Source of the DNA: Sphingosinicella sp. BN140058
Lineage (GTDB): Bacteria > Pseudomonadota > Alphaproteobacteria > Sphingomonadales > Sphingomonadaceae
Assembly (NCBI RefSeq): GCF_004135585.1
Contig: NZ_CP035501.1
Span: 4,535,501-4,599,500 of the forward strand
Reading direction: 5' to 3'
DNA: 64,000 nucleotides
Part shown: positions 37,213 to 48,843 of the stretch, piece by piece
Position numbering within the stretch: the first letter of the stretch is position 1
Layout of the letters: every line of letters begins with the position of its first letter
Program-made: the position numbers and the translations under genes
The notes under the pieces: generated by a model
Database searches by the model: none
What the model saw: only the letters and a program-made list of their open reading frames with translations
What the model was told of the DNA's origin: nothing

Positions 37213-37947
37213 ATGACCAAGCTCAACAGGTTTATTCGACGTTATACGTCAATCGCCGCAACGATTGATATCCTAAGACGGAAAGAGCTTCCGCTGCTGG
37301 ATCCGCAGAGTTGGGATGATCGGAATGATCGCTACTTCATGAGCCTCTACAAAGAAGCGCAGGAGATCAACGGGCTTTACGCACTGTGCGCGGCGACCTG
37401 CTCAGAGACCTACCATCACTGGCGCGTCTTCACCGCCGCCGCAGATGGTGCCTGCATCGAGATCAAGCGAGGGCCGCTAGAAACCGCTTTGTCAGCGCTC
37501 CCCGGAGTGCGCTTTGGCAAGATCGAGTATCTACTCCTTGACGACGTGGAGCAACTCGGTCCGGCAGATCGCGTCAGATTGCCATTCATAAAGCGAGCGG
37601 GGTTTAAGCCAGAAACCGAGTACCGTATCATTGCCGAGACTAGCGATGCTCAAACTCCAGCGCTTGCTGTCGAATTCCCGATTGAGCTTATCAACAAGAT
37701 CTATCTCAATCCTTGGCTCCCAGCGTCGATTGCTGATAGCCTGACCGGAATCTTTCAGAGTATACCGGGCTGTGAAGGGCTTAGCGTCAGCCGCTCGCAC
37801 CTGATTGACAGCGGTCGATGGAAGCGGTCGGGTGACCGAGTCGTCGGAAAAAAGAAGCCGCCTAAAATCAAGCTCGTCAAACCCGCGGCAACCTCAAAAG
37901 CGAAGTCAAAGCCGGCAACGAAGCCAAAGCCAAGAGTAAAAACTTGA
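37213..37947 (+). CDS. DUF2971-like protein with Lys/Pro-rich tail
   Basis: 244 aa. MTKLNRFIRRYTSIAATIDIL, LDPQSWDDRNDRYFM and ALCAATCSETYHHWRVFTAAADGA... follow the DUF2971 layout (conserved N.W..D.ND and W..Y/F.....G). Residues ~212-244 are basic (KKKPPKIKLVKP...). DUF2971 proteins are frequent in defence islands but have no established activity. GGAGAG precedes the ATG. Base composition is clearly lower in GC than genes to the left, marking the island start. Confidence 0.75.
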   Translation: MTKLNRFIRRYTSIAATIDILRRKELPLLDPQSWDDRNDRYFMSLYKEAQEINGLYALCAATCSETYHHWRVFTAAADGACIEIKRGPLETALSALPGVRFGKIEYLLLDDVEQLGPADRVRLPFIKRAGFKPETEYRIIAETSDAQTPALAVEFPIELINKIYLNPWLPASIADSLTGIFQSIPGCEGLSVSRSHLIDSGRWKRSGDRVVGKKKPPKIKLVKPAATSKAKSKPATKPKPRVKT

Positions 37948-38193
37948 AGGGACATGCCGAGGCTGCTGAACGAGTAGTCTCGCTAGGGTGCAAGGGCGGG
38001 AATCTGGTAGCAGTGAGAGCGGGCCATGCCGGCAGCGCCTTGACCATTTCGAGCACGAGGGTCTCTTTCGCGGTAGCGGGTAATCGCGGGTGCACGGTTG
38101 AGGCTAGGTAAAGCCTCAGCCCACCCTTTGTGTCTGCCGAGTTGCGGCGCTCGGCAAAATCGCCTTTCCTGCGCACGGAAAGGGGGATGGATC

Positions 38194-38352
38194 ATGTGCA
38201 ATCGGTTCAGGATGACGGCGAAGCAGGAGGAACTGGCGTTGGCGTTCGGGATCGATCCGGAACTGACCATGCCGGAGCTGACGCCGCTGCGACCGCCGGA
38301 GATGCTCCCGGACCGGCTCGGCTGGATGATGCTGGGGGGCGCGTTTCCTTGA
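38194..38352 (+). pseudogene. N-terminal fragment of an SRAP (YedK/HMCES) gene
   Basis: ATG 38194 begins MCNRFRMTAKQEELALAFGI and continues PPEMLPDRLGW, the N-terminus of an SRAP protein with catalytic Cys2, then stops after 52 codons. It lies ~1.1 kb downstream of a central SRAP fragment, so the pieces are in reversed order. Either one gene was broken and rearranged by island insertion or two copies were lost separately. Confidence 0.7.
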
Positions 38353-38691
38353 AGCTGTTCTAGGGAAGGGGCGCACCGCAAACCGGTGGAACAGGGCATG
38401 AACATCTGGTAAGGTGGGTGGCGACGCAGTCTCGAACTGAGTCAGGACAGGAGGTGCTTCGAGCTGAACATGGGGCCCGCTCAACGGTATAGTAAGCGCC
38501 GCTGAGGCCTCGCCGCAAACTCTCGCGTGGCTCCCCGACGCTCTGTGGCCTCGATCCGGAAGCCGGCGCTGCGAGTCAAGCGCTGTTTCACTCTTGCAAC
38601 TAGGGGCAAGTTGCCTCAAGAGCACTAGAGCTTGATAGTGACCAATCCGTGTGGATCTGGCTAGCTCTACATGTAGACGGGGGATGGTAGA
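38353..38691. other. gene-free stretch before orphan methyltransferase
   Basis: No recognisable gene. The sequence is intermediate in GC and includes GTCAGGACAGGAGGTGCTTCGAG-like remnants of family A. The promoter of the methyltransferase at 38692 should lie here. Confidence 0.4.
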
Positions 38692-39888
38692 TTGGCCCTC
38701 GCCAAAGTCGACTGGTCGCGGCTATATACGATGCTTTGTTCGGGTCTCCAATGGATCTTCGATAACGTGCTGAATCTCAGAAATGACTTCCATGCAGTCC
38801 CGAGTCTCCTGGAGGCTGGACGCTCAGTGCTCGCTCACGGAAGGGCGGAGGATCTTCTTCAAGCGGTGCATTGGTCACCCGGGTTGGCCCGCTTGGTGCT
38901 AATTGATCCACCGTATAACAGACGCACGAGATTCCACCATTACGATGACAGCAGCCATAGTGAGGTATGGCTTCAGGAGCTGAGAGAGAACTGCGTACGG
39001 CTCAAGCATTGTCTAGCAGTCGACGGCAGCCTCTGGATGCATATTGACGATGCAGAGATGCCTGCGGCGAGAGTGATGCTCGACGAGATATTTGGTAACA
39101 AGAACTTTGTGGCCACGATAGTTTGGCAAAAGACTGTAAGTCGTGATAATAGAACGGCAATCTCTACGACTCACGAGTACATTCTCGTCTATGCATTTGA
39201 TAAGAAGTTATGGTCTAAGAGTCGTCATAAGCTGCCGGCAACAGAGGAGCAACGATCAAGGTACAGGAACCTTGATGGAGACCCGAGAGGCCCATGGACA
39301 TCAGGCGACCTTACTGCCAAAGCGGGTCCGGGCCGGCGCAAGGAGCAATTCTATAGTATCGAAACGCCCTCTGGCCGTGTCGTATCCCCAGCGACCGGTA
39401 CCTGCTGGCGGTTCACACGGGAGCGTCTAGACGAGCTCATTGCTGATGGCAGGATTGACTTTGGCACGGGGAACAAGATGCCGCGACTTAAAAGGTTCCT
39501 AAGCGAAATTGACCCGGGTCTCGTGCCGGATACATGGTGGGAGGGTGTGACGGTTGGCACGGCAGATAGTGCGAAGCGTCATTTGAAGTCGCTGTTTCCG
39601 AAGCTAGTTCCGTTCGAAACACCCAAGCCTGAAGAGCTTACGGCGCGGATACTTCATATCGCAACAGATCCGGGCGACCTGGTAATCGACGTTTATGGCG
39701 GATCTGGAACGACAGCTGCGGTGGCGGAGAAGATGAGCCGTCGGTGGTTGACCTCGGAGCGAGAGGAAAAAACCTTCTTCGAGTTTACGCTGCCAAGGCT
39801 CAAAATGGTTGTTGAAGGCCGCGACCCAGGAGGCGTAAGCGAGAAGTACAACTGGGCCCTTGGACGTCAATTCGAAGTCATTGTGTAA
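38692..39888 (+). CDS. beta-class (type III Mod-like) DNA methyltransferase, no partner nuclease
   Basis: 398 aa. The catalytic motif IV DPPY is at 72-75 (LVLIDPPYN), followed by the type III-like VDGSLWMHIDDAEM and DEIFGNKNFVATIVWQK. Motif I YGGSGTT is at 335-341, in the C-terminal half as expected for the beta class. It is shorter than usual Mod proteins (~600 aa), and no Res helicase is present. Starts at TTG 38692 after GGGGGA. Likely an N6-adenine or N4-cytosine methylase. Its stop overlaps the stop region of the convergent McrC-like gene by 11 bp. Confidence 0.88.
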   Translation: MALAKVDWSRLYTMLCSGLQWIFDNVLNLRNDFHAVPSLLEAGRSVLAHGRAEDLLQAVHWSPGLARLVLIDPPYNRRTRFHHYDDSSHSEVWLQELRENCVRLKHCLAVDGSLWMHIDDAEMPAARVMLDEIFGNKNFVATIVWQKTVSRDNRTAISTTHEYILVYAFDKKLWSKSRHKLPATEEQRSRYRNLDGDPRGPWTSGDLTAKAGPGRRKEQFYSIETPSGRVVSPATGTCWRFTRERLDELIADGRIDFGTGNKMPRLKRFLSEIDPGLVPDTWWEGVTVGTADSAKRHLKSLFPKLVPFETPKPEELTARILHIATDPGDLVIDVYGGSGTTAAVAEKMSRRWLTSEREEKTFFEFTLPRLKMVVEGRDPGGVSEKYNWALGRQFEVIV

Positions 39889-41131
39889 GGCAGTTCCTCA
39901 GGAATGACTGCATCTCGCTCCGTAGCATCTCAATTCCTTTCTTCGTGGAGAACGATCCTAGGCCTACCTTCGCAATTGAGACGACTTGCGGGTTGCCTTC
40001 AGCGACCGGCGTGTAAGCCCGATGCGATATGCCGTCATCTGACGTCGGATACATGAGAGCTACATGCCGCACGCTACTTACAAGGCCTGCCGATAGCACC
40101 TGATAGAAGTCGATATTCTTGGGGTGCTCACCCAGCGTTTTGTATTTGGCGTCCGCATGCAGTACATGATGCTTTCCGCGCCGAACTGTTATGTCTGGCG
40201 TCGTGCGGGTTGTCTGTATAGTGCCGGAGAATACCGTGGTTGCAAGTGGCAAACTCTCCTTTGTTACCGATAGTCCGAGAGGCCGAGCAGCCTCTGCAAA
40301 GAGACGGCGGACAGCACGCTCAAAGAGATTCTCAGAATCCCATAAGAACCCCGGCAATGTCAGCTCACCCGATTCGTAAGCCACTTGGCGATCGTCAGCG
40401 AGCATCTTCGCGATCTCAACGGCGTGAGCTAGGTGCGGATGGTGGCGACGAGCTGACGGCACGACGGCTCTCCGAGTCCAAGATGATTGTACGTTTGGTA
40501 GCTCGCCAGCCCAAGATCTAAGTTGTTGTCTTCTACCAGGATCCTCGACGGTCAGCTCTAATTGGTTGCCCGCCCACTTGAGAAGCCTGTTGGTAGGCAC
40601 ATCGCGCGTCAGCTGAGATGCCATTACACCGAGCTGTCCCGTGACCGGAAGTAGCCGCTTGTAGTCCCTTGGGTCCAATCGACCACGTAGGAAGGGGCTG
40701 CGGAACCGCCGCTCGCTGTACCCCAGCGGATAGCCACGAGCGCTGGCTCCTCTCAATGCGCCAAGAAATAGCTCCGCGATAACGTCTGCAATGCCTTCCT
40801 CGTCGGCAGATGTCCCGCTCGCGTCAGACAAGGTTTCTATGCCATGCCCATAAGCTAGGAAGCGCCACATGGCGGACCGCCAGCCCGCTCCACGCGAGGC
40901 ACGGTTTATGAATTTTGGAGCGATCTCGACGCTTAGCTTCCCGATCTTCACAAAGCCGGCAACTCCCCGAGCCGACAGGAGGTAATTGCCTGCTGGTGAG
41001 GGCAGTAGCCGAAGAGGCTCCTCTCGCAGCTTCAGCGACTTCCGCCAAAAGGCGCTTGCCTCTGCAATAGCGACTGTCTCCGAGCTCGAGAGTCTTAGCG
41101 TGACGGGCTCGCCGTTCTCTGTTAACTCCAT
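39878..41131 (-). CDS. McrC-like PD-(D/E)xK nuclease subunit of leftward operon
   Basis: 417 aa. The N-terminal half has McrC-family features (GVAGFVKIGKLSVEIAPKF, FLRGRLDPRDYKRLL). The nuclease motif is TPDITVRRGKHHVLHADAKYK (Asp, then D-x-K). McrC proteins cut DNA when activated by a McrB GTPase ring. The ATG overlaps the McrB-like stop (TAATG), so it is translationally coupled. It is divergent from the second McrC in the island, and GC is low. Confidence 0.85.
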   Translation of the reverse strand: MELTENGEPVTLRLSSSETVAIAEASAFWRKSLKLREEPLRLLPSPAGNYLLSARGVAGFVKIGKLSVEIAPKFINRASRGAGWRSAMWRFLAYGHGIETLSDASGTSADEEGIADVIAELFLGALRGASARGYPLGYSERRFRSPFLRGRLDPRDYKRLLPVTGQLGVMASQLTRDVPTNRLLKWAGNQLELTVEDPGRRQQLRSWAGELPNVQSSWTRRAVVPSARRHHPHLAHAVEIAKMLADDRQVAYESGELTLPGFLWDSENLFERAVRRLFAEAARPLGLSVTKESLPLATTVFSGTIQTTRTTPDITVRRGKHHVLHADAKYKTLGEHPKNIDFYQVLSAGLVSSVRHVALMYPTSDDGISHRAYTPVAEGNPQVVSIAKVGLGSFSTKKGIEMLRSEMQSFLRNCLTQ

Positions 41132-42321
41132 TATAGCGCAAGGCTTTGTAATACTCGAACTGCGTGAGCTTCTCCCAAGTGTCGAAGTGGCACCAGGTCT
41201 AGCGCGCCCCGAACTGGGGCATCGTCCCCGAGACGTTGCCGATCGCGGAATGCAGGTTGGGTCTCGGAGCCGGGCTCGATCTTCAAGATATCTCGTAGCG
41301 CATCCAGCCGACCAGTATACCGATCGATGATCTGGGGAAGGATGGCGGTATCCCAAGCCATGGCCAACGCGCTCCATCTGGCTTCAGGAGCGGCCCTCAC
41401 TATCGGCCACACAAGGGAATGCCCGATCTCGAAATCATCACCCAAATCCGCGGCGATGTGGCTATTTATCCGGTCCAGCATGAGGATCGTGGTCTCTTCT
41501 GGACTGAGCGTGCCTAGCTCTTCGGCTCCCTTCCTGACAGCAGAAGCCTTTTCACTCAGAGTGCCTAGGTCAACCGAAAGGCGTGACGCAAGCAGCTCTA
41601 CATTAGGTCGCATTTCGATGCGGTGGAACCTTCTTGTCAAAGCTGAGTCCAGCGGAAGTGCCGCCTTATCCACCGAGTTCATCGTTGCAAGTAAGTATAC
41701 GTGCTCAGGAAAAGTCCAATCATCAGGCAAAGAATGCGCATCTCCGCCTCTCAGCATTCTAATCTGTTCCGATCTGCCATTAGTATACTCAACTCCTGGC
41801 AAGCTTACTTTTAAAGCGCGGCTATTTATTGTGCCAGATCTGGTGGCGCGATATTCCGGATCAAGTAGAGTTATAAACTCTCCAAAGACCTGGCTTGTGT
41901 TAGCGCGATTTAATTCATCGATGATTAGCAGGCAGCCATCCGGACCATTCGGCTCATGTACACGAACTGCCAGCGTCATGAGGAGGCCAAAGTGAGGTTC
42001 AAGGACAATGCCGCTTCCCTCCGGCTTTGGTCGCCTTCCTAAAATGAACTCTTCATAAGAATAACTTTGGTGGAATGTCACCCATTCCACAGCGATATTG
42101 ATCGGTATCTCGTCTGACGTCTGGGATGCCGCCGTCCCAAACTGTTGATCAGTCGAACCGAGGCGTAGCGTTGGGCGTCCGCCGGCTGCGCCGCGCGCGG
42201 CCAGCCGGGCAATGACCTCCGAAACAACCCAAGTCTTGCCCGTGCCGGGAGGGCCAGAAAGAAGTACGTTCTTATCAATCGCCAACGCCGAGATTATCTG
42301 CTGAACGAGATCGATGCTCAT
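41131..42321 (-). CDS. McrB-like AAA+ GTPase lacking N-terminal DNA-reading domain
   Basis: 396 aa. Walker A GPPGTGKT is at 23-30, very near the N-terminus; TFHQSYSYEEFI is at 82-93; Walker B LLIIDEL is at 131-137; the McrB signature TMNSVDKAALPLDSALTRRF replaces MNTxD. Standard McrB proteins carry a 150-350 aa specificity domain before Walker A, and here it is absent. The upstream gene overlaps by 4 nt (ATGA), and the downstream McrC-like gene by 1 nt. It is inferred to be the motor of a split McrBC-type restriction system. Confidence 0.88.
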   Translation of the reverse strand: MSIDLVQQIISALAIDKNVLLSGPPGTGKTWVVSEVIARLAARGAAGGRPTLRLGSTDQQFGTAASQTSDEIPINIAVEWVTFHQSYSYEEFILGRRPKPEGSGIVLEPHFGLLMTLAVRVHEPNGPDGCLLIIDELNRANTSQVFGEFITLLDPEYRATRSGTINSRALKVSLPGVEYTNGRSEQIRMLRGGDAHSLPDDWTFPEHVYLLATMNSVDKAALPLDSALTRRFHRIEMRPNVELLASRLSVDLGTLSEKASAVRKGAEELGTLSPEETTILMLDRINSHIAADLGDDFEIGHSLVWPIVRAAPEARWSALAMAWDTAILPQIIDRYTGRLDALRDILKIEPGSETQPAFRDRQRLGDDAPVRGALDLVPLRHLGEAHAVRVLQSLAL

Positions 42322-42878
42322 CCCTTAGGCGCCTCGTATTTCCAATAGCCTCCGCGTGAAGGCCCCCACAAGATTTTTGCAAACGGGAGCTTCCGCTCCC
42401 TTTCGCTTGGTTCTCCTGTCGTAAAGCCCGCCCAAACAGTTCCGTCTTCAGCTCGGGCAAGATATATATGTAAGCCGCCAACGCTTTCCAATAGGCGCTT
42501 TGCGTCGCTTGTGGTCTCGCCGCTGTTGAGCGTTGGAAAGCCAGCGGCCGGGCTCCATGCTCGGAGGCGTGCATGTCGATGTCGATTCTGACGGGCGATC
42601 CGCATGCGCTTCGCGGATTTGGCCCAGAATTCCAGCCTCTCTGGCGATTGTTCCGGGTGAGCTCTGTTGCTGACGTTCATGATCAGTGGTGTGCCGTTTG
42701 GCGGGAAGTTAGATGCAAGGAACGTCAAGAGAGGTTCGACTAACGTGGCGGGAACTTGGATGTATAGGTGCCCCCCTCCACTTGCTGGCTTGTCAGCAAT
42801 TGATCGTTCTATGTTGTACAGATCGCTTGGATTGAGCCTTAGCGACCAGAGTTCGTCGATCTCCATCTGTCCGTGCAT
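42318..42878 (-). CDS. unknown protein between methyltransferase and McrB-like gene; candidate split specificity subunit
   Basis: 186 aa from ATG 42878 (GTGGAG 10 nt upstream); an in-frame ATG at 42959 would give 213 aa. No known family is recognised. The sequence has two similar-looking patches (GGGHLYIQVPATLVEPLL and VGGLHIYLARAEDGTVW) and a basic middle (KRMRIARQNRHRHARLRAW) suited to nucleic-acid binding. It overlaps the methyltransferase 3' end by 86 nt and the McrB-like start by 4 nt, so all four genes are likely co-translated. A role as modified-base reader is an inference from the missing McrB N-terminal domain. Confidence 0.75.
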   Translation of the reverse strand: MHGQMEIDELWSLRLNPSDLYNIERSIADKPASGGGHLYIQVPATLVEPLLTFLASNFPPNGTPLIMNVSNRAHPEQSPERLEFWAKSAKRMRIARQNRHRHARLRAWSPAAGFPTLNSGETTSDAKRLLESVGGLHIYLARAEDGTVWAGFTTGEPSERERKLPFAKILWGPSRGGYWKYEAPKG

Positions 42879-43899
42879 TTGATGATGTCTCCACGATGTA
42901 AAGGTGCTCGTGCACAGCGCCAGATTTCGCAACTCGCGCGTTGCTTCGAAATCTTTCAATTGGCGTATGAAGGCGCTTCACCGAACCGTATTTCTCAAGC
43001 AAAGACATAAGCTCCGTGCCAGAAATATGTCCATCTTCACTGTAGCTGATAAACACCCAATCAGACTTTACGTTCGACATCGTCGTCTCAAAAGCTGCCT
43101 TGGCACGACGGCGATAGCAGAAGTCAGAGGCTTGAGGGTACCAGTCACGGAGGCCGCCGTCGCCGACGGGGTCCGGTTCGTCTTCTTGAGCAATCGTCTC
43201 AAGAATATGGTAATTCCCGCCGTACTGGCGTTTGGTATATGGCGGGTCAAGGTATACTGCTGCTGCTTCTGTCCTCGCCGAAAGATCTTCGACCCTTCCT
43301 TGCATTACCTCGTGCTTATAGCGATATCGGGAGGGTTCGCTTGGTGCGATCCAAAGCGGCGCCAAGCTAGCAGGGTTCCAGGACGATCGATAGTAACCGT
43401 ATGTTCCAGCGATATTGGCTACCCGATTTACAGCTAAAATAAGATCGTGGAGAAGAAGGTCAATGTCATCGTCAGCCACGCCGCTTTCGCGCCATTCTCG
43501 TAGCTTTCGCCGGATAGCATCAATTCGGGCTGCGTTGTGGCCGGTGAAGTACATCCGCGGCTTGCATCCGTTCTGCGGCTTCCCCTCGTCGCTGTACTCT
43601 CTCCAGAAGAAGCCGCGCTCCGGAGCAAGAGCGTTTAACACCTCGATCGCACGACCGTATTCTAGTCGCGAGCCGAACGCGGTGCCATCGTGTAGCAACC
43701 TTGCGCGAGCATGCAGCGTAGGGAACCTCAGCTCATCCGACGCGATCACCCGCAGCCCGTGCTCGGCGAACGTGGCGGACATTGTCGCAGTGCCGCACAT
43801 GGGATCAGCGATCGAGGTGCCCGGGGGAAGCCTCTCCGCTACAATGGATCCGATCCAATCCGCAATGCGAGCTTTGTTGCCTAGATAACGGTACGCCAT
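42793..43899 (-). CDS. alpha-class (Dam-like, D12) N6-adenine DNA methyltransferase
   Basis: 368 aa starting MAYRYLGNKARIADWI, with the SAM motif ADPMCGTAT at 31-39 and DPPYTKRQYGGNYH with Asp218-Tyr221 as motif IV. The order (FxGxG-like motif first, DPPY later) fits the alpha class. It is the first gene of the leftward operon methyltransferase-unknown-McrB-McrC. It may protect host DNA or create the mark that the McrBC-like part reads or avoids. An ATG 12 codons upstream is also possible. Confidence 0.88.
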   Translation of the reverse strand: MAYRYLGNKARIADWIGSIVAERLPPGTSIADPMCGTATMSATFAEHGLRVIASDELRFPTLHARARLLHDGTAFGSRLEYGRAIEVLNALAPERGFFWREYSDEGKPQNGCKPRMYFTGHNAARIDAIRRKLREWRESGVADDDIDLLLHDLILAVNRVANIAGTYGYYRSSWNPASLAPLWIAPSEPSRYRYKHEVMQGRVEDLSARTEAAAVYLDPPYTKRQYGGNYHILETIAQEDEPDPVGDGGLRDWYPQASDFCYRRRAKAAFETTMSNVKSDWVFISYSEDGHISGTELMSLLEKYGSVKRLHTPIERFRSNARVAKSGAVHEHLYIVETSSNARTDGDRRTLVAKAQSKRSVQHRTINC

Positions 43900-44366
43900 A
43901 TCTCTTAGAATTTTGAATCGGGCGGGATGAGCCAATCGTTGGGTTTCGTCCTTCGGTCGGCCCGGCCGCGGGACAATGGGGGATCAAAGGCGGCTTGTCA
44001 TTACAAATCGGCACGCAGGGCGTGGCACTTTCTTGTGGGCATCGCCTGTGAGGTGCGACCTCTTCGGTTGAGCTTCGGCACGTCGTACCCAAACGTACTC
44101 GTCTGGGCGCCGATCGCCCCCCTCGATCGCTTACGGCCGTCTGGGGAGCAAAGTTTGGCAGCTCCTTTACCTGAACTCACCTCAGGAGGTGGTTGGGGGG
44201 GGGGCGGTGAGAGCCGATTGCTTCTTGATCCATATAGGCGTTTGCGCGGTGGGCCTCACTTGTCACCGCTAGCGGTCCGAGCCGACGACGAGCTGCTCGG
44301 TTGGCTTCGCTTAGCTTGACGGCACGCAACGTGTCGGAGAGACAGTTCTGAAGTGAGGGATCAGGA
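43900..44366. other. divergent intergenic region of the defence island
   Basis: About 470 bp between the leftward methyltransferase operon and rightward mrr; promoters for both should lie here. A 130-codon frame on the plus strand (43927-44319) has unconvincing composition. A run of 10 G (44195-44204) is the notable feature. Confidence 0.5.
44195..44204. repeat. poly-G tract (10 G) upstream of mrr
   Basis: Ten consecutive G, ~160 bp before the mrr start. Tracts of this length can slip during replication and alter promoter spacing or an overlapping frame. Confidence 0.6.
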
Positions 44367-45242
44367 ATGACCGTTAATCTTCCAAAATATGATGACTTTA
44401 TGCTACCCACCCTTCATGCCGTTCAGCATCTGGGAGGATCCGCATCAATTAAGGAGATTGAGGACGCACTAACGGAAGCCATGGGGCTGACGCAGGTACA
44501 GCTCGACGCCGCATATTCGAAGAGCGGCGCCCTTATCGCGCCGGATCGCATGTCTTGGGCGCGGAGCCATCTCAAAATCGCAGGCCTCCTCACGAGCGGG
44601 GGAAAGGGCATCTGGGTCCTCACGGACGCGGGACGAGACGCAGCCAACCTTACGCCGGCGCAGTTGAAGGCCGAGGTGAAGAAACGTAGCGCGTCGCACC
44701 ACGCAAAGATTGTCGCCAAACGCGAGCAGGCGCGCGCCGCTGGCATTTCGGAAGAAGACCAGGGCGATACTGCCGAACCGGAATGGAACGAACTCCTTCT
44801 CGAGCAGCTCAAAGCAATGAAGCCCGATGCGTTTGAGCGGCTTGCGCAACGGCTGCTGCGGGAGAGCGGATTCGTGAAGGTCGAGGTGACCGGCAAGTCG
44901 GGCGACGGTGGCATCGACGGCTCAGGCGTGCTGCGGATGAACCTGATTTCGTTCCAGGTTCTATTTCAGTGCAAACGCTACAAGGGCTCTGTCGCGTCGG
45001 AGGTGGTCCGCAACTTCCGCGGCGCCATGCAGGGGCGGGCGGACAAGGGGCTGATTATCACGACCGGGACGTTCACCTCCGAAGCGCGGAAGGAGGCGAC
45101 GCGTGACGGGGCGCCGGCGATCGATCTGATCGACGGGGAAGCCCTTTGTGAGTTGCTTAAGGAGAAGGGGCTCGGAGTCGTCGTGAGGCCGGTGATCACG
45201 GAGCATGTGGTCGTGGTGCCAGAGTTCTTTTCGGAAATTTAG
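44367..45242 (+). CDS. mrr: Mrr-type restriction endonuclease
   Basis: 291 aa. A winged-helix Mrr N-terminal domain (~5-95) has YDDFMLPTLHAVQHLGG. A charged linker leads to the catalytic Mrr_cat domain (~150-270) with AFERLAQRLLRESGF, GKSGDGGIDGSG (Asp) and FQCKRYKG (QxK). Mrr cuts DNA carrying methylated A or C. GC is higher than its left neighbours. It is followed after ~140 bp by mcrB in the same direction. Confidence 0.93.
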   Translation: MTVNLPKYDDFMLPTLHAVQHLGGSASIKEIEDALTEAMGLTQVQLDAAYSKSGALIAPDRMSWARSHLKIAGLLTSGGKGIWVLTDAGRDAANLTPAQLKAEVKKRSASHHAKIVAKREQARAAGISEEDQGDTAEPEWNELLLEQLKAMKPDAFERLAQRLLRESGFVKVEVTGKSGDGGIDGSGVLRMNLISFQVLFQCKRYKGSVASEVVRNFRGAMQGRADKGLIITTGTFTSEARKEATRDGAPAIDLIDGEALCELLKEKGLGVVVRPVITEHVVVVPEFFSEI

Positions 45243-45382
45243 TTCCGAGAGCTCGTAAGTCTCACGCTCGTTTGATGCGTCAATGCCTGTCCTAGTCCGC
45301 GAGCTTACTTTGCTGAGGGGCATCAATCAGCTATGAAACGACGTACGAACGATGTGGCTTCTGGCGGTTCGAGGTGAGTCCG

Positions 45383-47518
45383 ATGATTGAATCTAGAGAA
45401 CAGTACGATCTTTGGAGCGAATTCTTAGCAGCTTGGCCGCTCGAGCGGCTGCACAGAATGTCTCTCGATGAGTACACACAGGCGGGCTCCAAGGATAGCT
45501 TTACCTACTGGATTGAGTCTCGCCTCGACAAAATCGGTAGTATATGGGGTGGGTCTGCGTTTAAGTTTGGTGTATTTTCGCGCAGGGCTGCAGAGGCTAG
45601 AGATTCTGGTGACAAACTCCGCTACAGCGACTCCTACGGTTGGTACGCTTCGCTAGGTGCTACCCCAGAAGAGGCTTTTGAGAATGTACGGGCGCACGTT
45701 GTCCAAATAGCAAACCTTGCAGCGCAAGGCGATCTGCGCGGAATCGAGCGCTATCCGCATTTTGGCGAAGCAGTCAAATGGAAGATTGCTTTTCACTATC
45801 AAGACCGAAACAATCCGACGATTGTAAACATATTCAAGCGGGCACCGCTCGCGGTTTTTAGCGGTAGTGGCACTGATGACGGCATGGCAAAGCTTCAAGC
45901 GTCCGCTCTTGCACTTCGCCCGAGCAGCACAGGTATAATCGAGTTTGGTCAAAAAATCTGGACCGAATGGAGTGCAAAAAGCTTGAAGATCTGGAAGCTT
46001 TCGCATGGCGGCCAAGGCAACTTTACGGAGGAGGAGCGCCAAGGCTTTCTGGCTTCACGGATTGCTTTGATGCATCAAGACACAGGCAAGGGGCAAGGCG
46101 AGAAGTTCTCGGAGAAACACGCTGGCGAGTTATTCTTTCTTTGTCACGGTAACAGTCCGCAGCTCATTGGCCAGTTCACCTCTGAGACCAGCCCTTCCGA
46201 TAAGGGCGAGGGTTGGCTGCAACGCAGCTACAGGATCCTTAAAAGCGCCCAGCGAACTGATCGATACACGGCGAATTCGAAGCTTTGGTCTCCGCAAGGG
46301 AACTCCACCTTCTGGCGGGTGGGTGAGCACGATCTTCCAGAATTCGAAGAAACGTTACTCAAACCGTTCTTTGGAATGGATCTTGGTGAACTTGCAGCGC
46401 TTGCTGGAGTAACCACTGAAGATGCACCCGCTGCACCGATCCTTGCACAGCCGCAATCTTCTAATTTGAGGAAATTTCCCTCAGCGCCCCTTTCGACTAA
46501 CCTTATCCTCTACGGTCCACCAGGCACGGGTAAGACATACCGAACAGCATTGGAGGCAGTTCGGCTCTGCGATCGGCTCGACAAATCGGACCCACTATCT
46601 CAGCACGGGATACGACGGAGGGAGCTACGTGATCGTTATGACCAGCTCGTCGACGCAGGTCGGATAGAAATGATTACCTTCCATCAGAGCTATTCGTATG
46701 AGCAGTTCGTAGAAGGCCTTCACCCAGTCACCCAGCACAAGGCGAAACCAGATGGTGGAACTAGCGAGGTGTCTGGCCACAGTGGCGAGATAAGTTCGGG
46801 TGCCATCGGGTTTCATCTTGAGCCCAATGACGGTGTTTTCAAACGATTTGCGATTGTTGCCGAACGGAGCGAAACATCCGAACCCTACGTCCTCATAATC
46901 GACGAGATCAATCGTGGTGACATTTCCAAGATCTTTGGCGAGCTGATAACGTTACTTGAACCCGATAAGAGGCTGGGCCAGCCAAATGCGCTTACGGTGA
47001 AGCTGCCTTATTCCGGCGCTACGTTCGGTGTGCCGTCGAACCTGCACATCATTGGCACGATGAACACGACCGACCGTTCGATCGCGTTGCTGGACACCGC
47101 GCTGCGGCGCCGGTTCGAGTTCCGCGAGCTGATGCCAAGACCCGACCTTCTCGACCCAGTGGATGGGATCGATCTGGCTAAGCTGCTGACTCTCCTCAAC
47201 GAGCGGATCGAGTATCTGTTCGACCGCGAGCACCAAATCGGACACGCTTATTTTCTCGGCTGCGGATCGAAGGACGACCTTGATAAAGTGATGCGCCACA
47301 AGGTCATCCCGCTGCTCGCCGAATATTTCTACGAGGACTGGAACAAGGTCGCCGCTGTGCTCGGCGATGCGGACGAAGGCGAGGGCGACCGCACCGGCGG
47401 GTTCCTAGTGCGCAGGGCACTGCAGCCGCCCGCCGGCATCGGCGGCTTCGCGGCGTCCGGCCTCCGTTTCCGCTGGAGCGTGCGCGATGACGGGTTCGAC
47501 TACGCCAAGCTGCAATGA
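45383..47518 (+). CDS. mcrB: McrB-family GTPase with N-terminal specificity region
   Basis: 711 aa. Residues 1-330 form a low-GC-encoded N-terminal recognition region (for example SRLDKIGSIWGGSAFKFGVF). The AAA+ GTPase has GPPGTGKT at 378-385, ITFHQSYSYEQFVEGL, Walker B VLIIDEINRGD and the GTP signature GTMNTTDRSIALLDTALRRRF. GAGGTGA sits just before ATG 45383. The stop overlaps mcrC by 4 nt. Base composition shifts near 46980 from AT-richer to host-like, so the gene is probably a mosaic. It recognises modified DNA by analogy with E. coli McrB. Confidence 0.93.
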   Translation: MIESREQYDLWSEFLAAWPLERLHRMSLDEYTQAGSKDSFTYWIESRLDKIGSIWGGSAFKFGVFSRRAAEARDSGDKLRYSDSYGWYASLGATPEEAFENVRAHVVQIANLAAQGDLRGIERYPHFGEAVKWKIAFHYQDRNNPTIVNIFKRAPLAVFSGSGTDDGMAKLQASALALRPSSTGIIEFGQKIWTEWSAKSLKIWKLSHGGQGNFTEEERQGFLASRIALMHQDTGKGQGEKFSEKHAGELFFLCHGNSPQLIGQFTSETSPSDKGEGWLQRSYRILKSAQRTDRYTANSKLWSPQGNSTFWRVGEHDLPEFEETLLKPFFGMDLGELAALAGVTTEDAPAAPILAQPQSSNLRKFPSAPLSTNLILYGPPGTGKTYRTALEAVRLCDRLDKSDPLSQHGIRRRELRDRYDQLVDAGRIEMITFHQSYSYEQFVEGLHPVTQHKAKPDGGTSEVSGHSGEISSGAIGFHLEPNDGVFKRFAIVAERSETSEPYVLIIDEINRGDISKIFGELITLLEPDKRLGQPNALTVKLPYSGATFGVPSNLHIIGTMNTTDRSIALLDTALRRRFEFRELMPRPDLLDPVDGIDLAKLLTLLNERIEYLFDREHQIGHAYFLGCGSKDDLDKVMRHKVIPLLAEYFYEDWNKVAAVLGDADEGEGDRTGGFLVRRALQPPAGIGGFAASGLRFRWSVRDDGFDYAKLQ

Positions 47519-48843
47519 TCCGCCGGACCATCCTCGAGTGGCAGAGCATCGCCTATGGCGATGACGACAAGACGATACCGGAGAGCGTCGCCGACCGGAT
47601 CGCCGCCGCGGCAGCGGCTTCCCCGCTTGCCGGGCGCGGAGGCTCCGGGGTGATCGAGCATGGCCGCAAGGCGCTGCGGGCGCGTGGCGTTGTCGGCGTC
47701 ATTGCGGCGCAGGGCTGTGCGCTCGAAATTTTGCCGAAGATCGAGGGGCTCGGCGAAGGTGAGGACGAGGCGAGCCGGACATCCATTCGCGACCGGCTGA
47801 TCCACATGCTCGGCGTTGCCTATGATCTCGATATCGCTAGCGCCGATCTCACTGCACTCGGCCTGCAGAACGAGACCCTTCTCGAGGTCCTGATCGCACG
47901 GTTTGCCGGCATGCTCGCCGATGCCGTTCGGCGCGGCATGCCGCGGCGCTACGTTCCGCACGAAGAGGATCTGCCGGCGCTGCGCGGGCGGCTCGATGTC
48001 GTGCGCCAGTTCACCACGCTGGCGGCAAGCCCGCAGCGTCTCGCCTGCCGTTTCGACGCGCTCTCACCGGACATTGCGCTCAACCAGATCATGAAGGCGG
48101 CGGTGACACGCTTGTCGCGAGTGGCCGTGCGCGCCGACACCCAGCGGACGCTCGCTGAACTCGCCTTCGCCTATGCGGACATTGCCTCCGTTGCGCCACG
48201 TGCGTTGCGCTGGGACGCGGTGCAGCTCGACCGCACGAATGCACGCTGGAAGCAATTGGTGGCGCTCGCCCGGCTGCTGCTCGGCGGGCAATATCAGAGC
48301 AGCTCCGGCGGTGCGTCCGAAGGCTTCTCGCTGCTGTTCGAGATGAACGCGTTGTTCGAGACCTATGCGGCGCGCATGCTCGCGACGCTGTTCGCCGGAA
48401 CCGCTTATCGGGTGGTGGCACAGGGTGGCCGGCGCTTCTGTCTCGACGAACTTGCCGGCGAGGAGGTGATCGCGCGCCGCTTCCAGACCAAGCCGGACAT
48501 CTTGGTGATGAAGGGGCAGGACATCGCCCTGCTGATCGACACCAAGTGGAAGCGGCTGAGCGCGCGCATCGACGATCCCAAGCAGGGCGTGAGCCAGGCC
48601 GACGTGTACCAGATGATGGCCTATGGCAGGATCTACGGCTGTCCGAAGCTGATGTTGCTTTATCCGCACCATGGGGGGCTTGGGCAGGCCGGAGAGAGTG
48701 GCCGCTACCGCGTCACGGGCTGCGCCGATGAGTTGGTAACGGCTACGCTTAACATGGGGCTGCGCCAGAAAGATGTGTCGGCGGAGCTAGCGCGGCTGCC
48801 TACGATTGTGGCGTTGCTGGAGCGAGCGCAGGTGGCAGCCTGA
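47515..48843 (+). CDS. mcrC: McrC nuclease subunit
   Basis: 442 aa, encoded in host-like high-GC DNA. McrC-family N-terminal region (GVVGVIAAQGCALEILPKIEG), LRGRLDVVRQF, then the nuclease core TKPDILVMKGQDIALLIDTKWK (Asp and DTKWK, a D-x-K variant). ATGA overlap with mcrB indicates translational coupling. Together with mcrB and mrr it makes a modification-dependent restriction cluster. Confidence 0.92.
   Translation: MIRRTILEWQSIAYGDDDKTIPESVADRIAAAAAASPLAGRGGSGVIEHGRKALRARGVVGVIAAQGCALEILPKIEGLGEGEDEASRTSIRDRLIHMLGVAYDLDIASADLTALGLQNETLLEVLIARFAGMLADAVRRGMPRRYVPHEEDLPALRGRLDVVRQFTTLAASPQRLACRFDALSPDIALNQIMKAAVTRLSRVAVRADTQRTLAELAFAYADIASVAPRALRWDAVQLDRTNARWKQLVALARLLLGGQYQSSSGGASEGFSLLFEMNALFETYAARMLATLFAGTAYRVVAQGGRRFCLDELAGEEVIARRFQTKPDILVMKGQDIALLIDTKWKRLSARIDDPKQGVSQADVYQMMAYGRIYGCPKLMLLYPHHGGLGQAGESGRYRVTGCADELVTATLNMGLRQKDVSAELARLPTIVALLERAQVAA

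Follow-up and report, generated by a model that had tools for sequence, protein, structure and literature searches.

Restriction systems in which a McrBC-like enzyme comes together with DNA methylases have been described several times. LlaI, BsuMI and LlaJI were classed together as type II systems that are related to McrBC and possess a methylase pair (PMC2614495; this and the other papers given by accession are drawn on in excerpt). LlaJI, a system with two methylases, reads an unmodified asymmetric site via a B3 domain (PMC12707154, PMC7680126); the site is bound by its protein R1, and phage resistance requires R1 as well as R2 (PMC1459862). The N-terminal domain of R1 of the H. pylori LlaJI homolog is represented by the structure 6c5d. 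LlaI and BsuMI harbor short McrB-like subunits of 337 and 343 amino acids (aa), respectively, in restriction cassettes of three open reading frames (ORFs) (PMC1459862). Moreover, a census of 2024 noted a surprising, undescribed abundance of methylase-associated McrBC-like systems, the description of which was deferred (PMC11090510). Here we analyze a locus of Sphingosinicella sp. BN140058 (GCF_004135585.1, contig NZ_CP035501.1, positions 4,535,501-4,599,500, forward strand; these 64,000 nucleotides (nt) are referred to as the window) that encodes two methylases, a short McrB-like GTPase, a McrC-like nuclease and a 186-aa protein, which we named U186. On the basis of an entirely computational analysis we consider it highly probable that these genes form a LlaJI-like restriction-modification system dependent on guanosine triphosphate (GTP), in which the sequence reader is a separate subunit. 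It is most likely of the modification-blocked, GTP-driven kind of LlaJI, LlaI and BsuMI rather than a methyl-reading type IV system.

Organization of the locus

The genes of the system are the following (positions of the window):

42793..43899, minus strand: methylase 1, a D12-class N6-adenine DNA methyltransferase of 368 aa (Pfam MethyltransfD12, expectation value (E) 1.5e-19; DPPY motif)
42318..42878, minus strand: U186, a free-standing protein of 186 aa with a predicted B3 fold, the proposed specificity subunit (fold comparison, fused relatives)
41131..42321, minus strand: short McrB-like AAA+ GTPase of 396 aa (Pfam AAA_5, E 3.5e-15; Walker A at residue 23; MNSVD)
39878..41131, minus strand: McrC-like nuclease of 417 aa with a PD...DxK motif (Pfam McrBC, PF10117, E 1.2e-27 on a longer ORF)
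38692..39888, plus strand: methylase 2, an N6_N4-class (type III Mod-like) DNA methyltransferase with uncertain start codon (Pfam N6_N4_Mtase, E 9.4e-37; DPPY motif)

An earlier interpretation of this DNA, made from the letters and their ORFs and called the sequence-only reading in the following, had described four leftward genes overlapping by 86, 4 and 1 nt. The ORF coordinates show the same for D12/U186, U186/McrB and McrB/McrC, respectively, all on the minus strand. The limits it set for the unit, 39878..43899, hold for these four genes but not for the extent of the system, as the fifth gene, methylase 2, was overlooked; it is convergent with mcrC, and the ends of the two genes overlap by 11 nt. 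By this layout U186, McrB and McrC constitute a three-gene restriction cassette with a short McrB, and the 396-aa protein bears out the earlier statement that a Walker A at residue 23 leaves no space for an N-terminal reader. In the alignment the McrB of the window has the GTPase motifs Walker A (GPPGTGKT), a DE box and the NxxD motif MNSVD, and its profile matches best the McrB chains 6ut3, which we take to be the McrB of T. gammatolerans, and 6hz4 of the PDB. The McrC profile matches 6ut5_G with an E of 1.5e-29. The McrC residues D313, D327 and K329 are invariant in 11 aligned sequences, ten of which belong to this system (from the window and the 14 loci introduced below), the other being the canonical McrC next door.

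U186 is predicted to carry a B3 fold

U186 has no match in the four family libraries Pfam, PADLOC, PHROGs and NCBIfam, and none was found in the PDB by sequence. The family search with U186 led to 270 matches at an E of 0.001, the best 120 of which were tabulated, and both the start and the length of U186 are conserved among its relatives. AlphaFold2 models of two relatives, with a predicted local distance difference test (pLDDT) of 93.7 and 92.3, both rank B3 DNA-recognition folds first. For the model with a pLDDT of 93.7, B3-type folds occupy Foldseek ranks 1-23 and also all 23 VIA-align rows, and the top folds include the B3 domains of BfiI, UbaLAI and LlaJI.R1, the last of which is a McrB homolog. 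A search of a viral fold library gave nothing below an E of 0.17. The sequence-only reading had proposed to look for an EVE, SRA, MspJI-like or other DNA-binding fold in the 186-aa protein, and the models of its relatives point to a DNA-binding fold of the B3 type. EVE, SRA and YTH folds were absent from the fold-search matches listed, in which no test was dedicated to excluding EVE, SRA or MspJI-like readers. U186 has a predicted B3 fold, which in these models ranks with the B3 sequence readers and not with the EVE, SRA or MspJI-like readers of modified bases.

A second line of evidence comes from the McrB relatives, of which 330 were matched at an E of 1e-20 or better and the best 120 tabulated. 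Among these 120 are 32 long relatives of at least 500 aa, and in all 32 the U186 profile recognizes the segment that precedes Walker A, with an E of 2.6e-61 to 1.8e-18 for a set of 32; four listed relatives of 428-444 aa, apparently truncated fused forms, were left out of this count. Judged from these profile matches, U186 is homologous to the N-terminal domain of the fused McrB relatives, and the U186-like domain occupies there the very position that the reader of McrB itself normally has. In a McrB tree of 125 rows, which was built with a quick method and has a very long outgroup branch, so that the root is unsure, 31 fused rows are set apart from the short clade with a support of 87. The closest fused relative among the matches listed, P0116 (54% identity), stands inside the short clade beside P0114 (support 98) and therefore appears to have arisen when neighboring genes fused again. 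Most of the short and fused McrB matches listed have a precomputed assignment to the newer Pfam family PF28529, which is absent from the Pfam scan of the window McrB.

The gene order is conserved in several phyla

A pattern scan of genome contigs with the U186 alignment yielded 14 distinct loci from Acidobacteriota, Pseudomonadota, Actinomycetota, Bacteroidota and Thermodesulfobacteriota. D12 methylase, U186, short McrB and McrC are encoded in this order on one strand in all of them, and Walker A lies at residue 22-43 of their McrB proteins. As all 14 loci were fetched through U186, they are uninformative on short McrBs without U186. In the 12 distant loci, the identity to the window amounts to 47-52% for the D12 methylase, 37-40% for McrB, 33-38% for U186 and 31-34% for McrC. 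The joint occurrence of the four genes, which the sequence-only reading had suggested looking up across genomes, is thus found in 14/14 U186-fetched loci. Both this recurrence of the order and the constant start and length of U186 show that the gene set is more than chance. Taken together, fold, fused relatives and gene order support the earlier idea that U186 is a detached specificity subunit.

The 86-nt overlap of the D12 and U186 genes is a local feature, because methylase 1 of the window has a C-terminal extension beyond its relatives: in the alignment these have 340-345 aa counted from the aligned start, compared to 368 aa in the window, and finish about 25 residues earlier. Elsewhere, in the 14 loci, the D12 and U186 genes are spaced by -17 to +3 nt, with gene starts set by hand.

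Outside these loci, the McrB profile found in 398 genomes of the phylum its own gene with 551 bits and nine others with 75-95 bits in frames of 460-888 aa, and in 369 genomes of another class nothing at an E of 1e-30, a search that had no positive control. The U186 profile was positive in its own genome alone among 60 genomes. No match was obtained in plasmids with the window U186 (the distant member P0264 gave three, see below), in phages, in viral contigs with McrB, or in E. coli genomes searched by DNA, the last being a weak test. Rfam gave no match either. Viral contigs searched with U186 gave solely the Roseovarius contig that is also locus L004. This contig of 42,690 bases, which carries the system, is also contained in the viral collection IMG/VR (as L028).

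Two methylases accompany the operon

Methylase 1 shares 47-67% identity with the D12 gene at the same place in all 14 loci; a PDB sequence search with it gave no match. A counterpart of methylase 2 is found at the same place and in the same orientation in L003 and L004, which are the two closest loci (67-69% identity), and was not seen in the covered flanks of the other 12. These 12 loci, which form branch B, each have an EcoRI-type methylase upstream of the D12 gene instead (BLASTP, 59-78% identity to the copy of L013), and Pfam EcoRI_methylase was confirmed in the three branch-B loci checked. Each locus therefore combines the D12 methylase with a further one, which comes from either of two unrelated families, so that two methylase genes stand with the operon in all 15 places, the window and the 14 loci.

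This bears on the possibility that the system is type IV-like, i.e., that U186 reads a modified base such as N6-methyladenine (6mA), that McrBC degrades foreign DNA bearing modifications and that the methylases belong elsewhere. Such an assignment would fit Mrr and the second, canonical McrBC next door and the best PDB match of the McrB profile, 6ut3. The N-terminal YTH domain of the T. gammatolerans McrB reads 6mA (PMC7680126). However, as two methylases accompany the operon, a methyl-dependent nuclease would endanger the host unless its reader left the methylase sites aside; moreover, by its fold ranking the reader domain falls among the B3 domains that read sequence. A type IV system with a modified-base reader was thus rejected as the principal interpretation because of the methylases in the window and 14/14 loci, and we regard it as highly unlikely. 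With two methylases at a fixed place and Walker A at residue 23, the proposal of the sequence-only reading that this is a modification-plus-restriction unit outside standard type IV is supported.

A U186-like domain is joined to an HNH nuclease

Using the distant U186 protein P0264, tblastn detected three Rhodobacterales plasmids with 25-30% identity, of which two (L029 and L030) were examined and the third (H102) is known from its similar match alone. L029:5992-7110 and L030:5983-7116 encode a protein of 372-377 aa, the N-terminus of which is U186-like (E 4e-32 and 1.7e-32, respectively, with the A4 profile); its C-terminal part carries an HNH motif that scores at the Pfam cut-off or slightly above it. 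On both plasmids this gene is convergent with a D12 methylase gene, and the D12 methylase of L030 is 44% identical to methylase 1 over 343 aligned residues. An Eco57I/N6_Mtase-type methylase adjoins these genes in L030, and no second methylase is annotated within the stretch of L029 examined. The D12 gene of L029 is annotated as two ORFs.

Since a related D12 methylase stands beside the U186-HNH fusion, the reader appears to travel with its methylase across nuclease types. U186 and the D12 methylase, together with an exchangeable second methylase, may represent a portable recognition cassette that has come to serve different types of cutting machinery, be it as a free subunit for the McrBC motor, as a McrB-fused domain or as an HNH-fused domain. 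A free reader would no longer be tied in number to the McrB ring, so that one or a few might suffice to load a hexamer, and it could be swapped like a type I specificity subunit. We put forward this proposal as a whole only tentatively, as a possibility that falls a little short of an even chance.

It is also conceivable that U186 is no reader at all, but a methylase accessory or a regulator of the operon, and that McrB finds DNA otherwise. The U186 gene overlaps that of methylase 1, U186 stays with a related D12 methylase where the nuclease is HNH instead of McrBC, and B3 domains also occur in transcription factors. However, the U186-like domain is attached to the restriction side, being fused to the McrB motor in all of the listed long relatives and, on two plasmids, to the HNH nuclease, whereas no U186-methylase fusion was seen, although none was searched for. 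A role as accessory or regulator is therefore quite improbable.

The system lies in a putative defense island

The five genes have a G+C content of 54-57% compared to 68-69% in the flanks. They are part of a low-G+C stretch, 37213-47518, with about 54-60% in most genes, which is probably an acquired defense island; the McrC gene at 47515-48843 has 66%. The drop in G+C, the occurrence of U186 in its own genome alone among 60 and the adjacent Mrr and canonical McrBC fit a horizontal gain, and the gene set was probably gained in this way into the island. Mrr (291 aa) and the canonical McrB (714 aa) and McrC (442 aa) are encoded at 44367-48843 on the plus strand, divergent from the system. These are nucleases of the methyl-dependent type beside two DNA methylases, the marks of which they must tolerate. 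A 244-aa protein (37213-37947, plus strand) resembles the PADLOC candidate PDC-S31 (E 3.7e-11) and has no Pfam match. Defense-like genes are also found beside the system at L003:2938-6254, L013:1936-5742 and L012:12238-13020, encoding across these loci DrmE_C-like and NERD proteins, GmrSD_N with an AAA_15 ATPase, and a PLD-like protein.

Such surroundings, the extension of the D12 gene past its usual end and the restriction of U186 to one genome among 60 would also be compatible with a decayed set, or with unrelated defense genes that happen to overlap. Against this stand the same gene order in all 14 loci from several phyla and the intact catalytic motifs, which make it extremely unlikely.

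Proposed mode of action and points against it

In the LlaJI-like system that we favor, U186 would, by analogy to LlaJI, bind an unmethylated, probably asymmetric site and dock on the McrB ring in place of the N-terminal domain, thereby delivering the site. GTP-bound McrB would then translocate DNA and McrC would cleave it, as in McrBC. Methylases 1 and 2 may each protect one strand of the site, and host DNA would be spared because both strands are protected.

Three observations weigh against this interpretation. First, the Foldseek E-values for the models of the U186 relatives are modest. Second, the methylase classes, D12 and N6_N4, differ from the 5-methylcytosine (5mC) enzymes of LlaJI. The LlaI methylase is an adenine enzyme, and the 5mC class is thus not required of the wider LlaJI-type kind. 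Third, the pairing of McrB with U186 is established only in part. Among the first 82 rows of the McrB table, 60 matches lie on contigs of at least 5 kilobases, and with a U186 search less sensitive than the McrB search 25 of these can be paired with a U186 match through the length of their contig, whereas 35 are unpaired. Two of the unpaired ones are the protein of the window itself and the fused P0116; the other 33, e.g., P0155 of Vibrio and P0153 of Pseudoalteromonas, have no assigned U186 partner. Seen from the other side, 25 of 35 branch-A U186 matches pair with a McrB match. The sequence-only reading had named short McrB homologs normally encoded without the 186-aa gene as evidence against a reader subunit, and these pairings answer this only in part.

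Comparison with known systems

McrBC-like motors are widespread, and the U186 family gives the methylase-associated group a concrete anatomy. A likely function is thereby proposed for a protein family of 270 matches at an E of 0.001, 120 of them tabulated, that has no match in the four family libraries searched. Moreover, the system offers a natural way to ask whether the exchange of one 186-aa protein swaps the specificity of McrBC, and what number of readers a McrB ring requires.

The titles and abstracts surveyed, most of them without the full text, describe neither a detached B3 subunit of a McrBC system nor a U186 family. McrBC-like restriction-modification as in LlaJI, LlaI and BsuMI is already known, and the B3 reader as a separate protein is a new variation of it: the predicted B3-type domain is on a protein of its own, while it is McrB-fused in relatives. 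E. coli McrBC (type IV) has the same motor and nuclease families, but its McrB bears its own methylcytosine reader and the excerpted account gives it no cognate methylase (PMC11090510). These two type IV features, a modified-base reader at the N-terminus of McrB and the absence of a cognate methylase, are missing here. CoCoNuT systems are defined by an NxD GTPase motif and coiled-coil fusions (PMC11090510, in excerpt) and are set apart by the GTPase motif, which here is NxxD (MNSVD). BfiI, UbaLAI, EcoRII and R.NgoAVII share the B3-type recognition fold, predicted for U186, yet there it is joined to the nuclease in one chain, whereas U186 is free. PcaI of Pectobacterium is a McrBC-like restriction enzyme directed against unmethylated DNA and accompanied by a methylase; according to the same excerpted source, it differs in having one Dcm-like methylase and a reader within the longer PcaIA protein (PMC8989522). 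LlaI and BsuMI resemble the system in their short McrB, three-gene restriction cassette and methylases, a likeness that rests on the description of the cassettes, as excerpted, and not on the sequence of the extra ORF; a separate third restriction gene therefore has a precedent. LlaJI of the Lactococcus plasmid pNP40 shares the McrB-like GTPase, the McrC-like PD...D/ExK nuclease, two methylases and the B3-type reader (here predicted), and differs in its 5mC methylases and in the reader, which in LlaJI.R1 (585 aa) is fused at the N-terminus and here is the separate protein U186.

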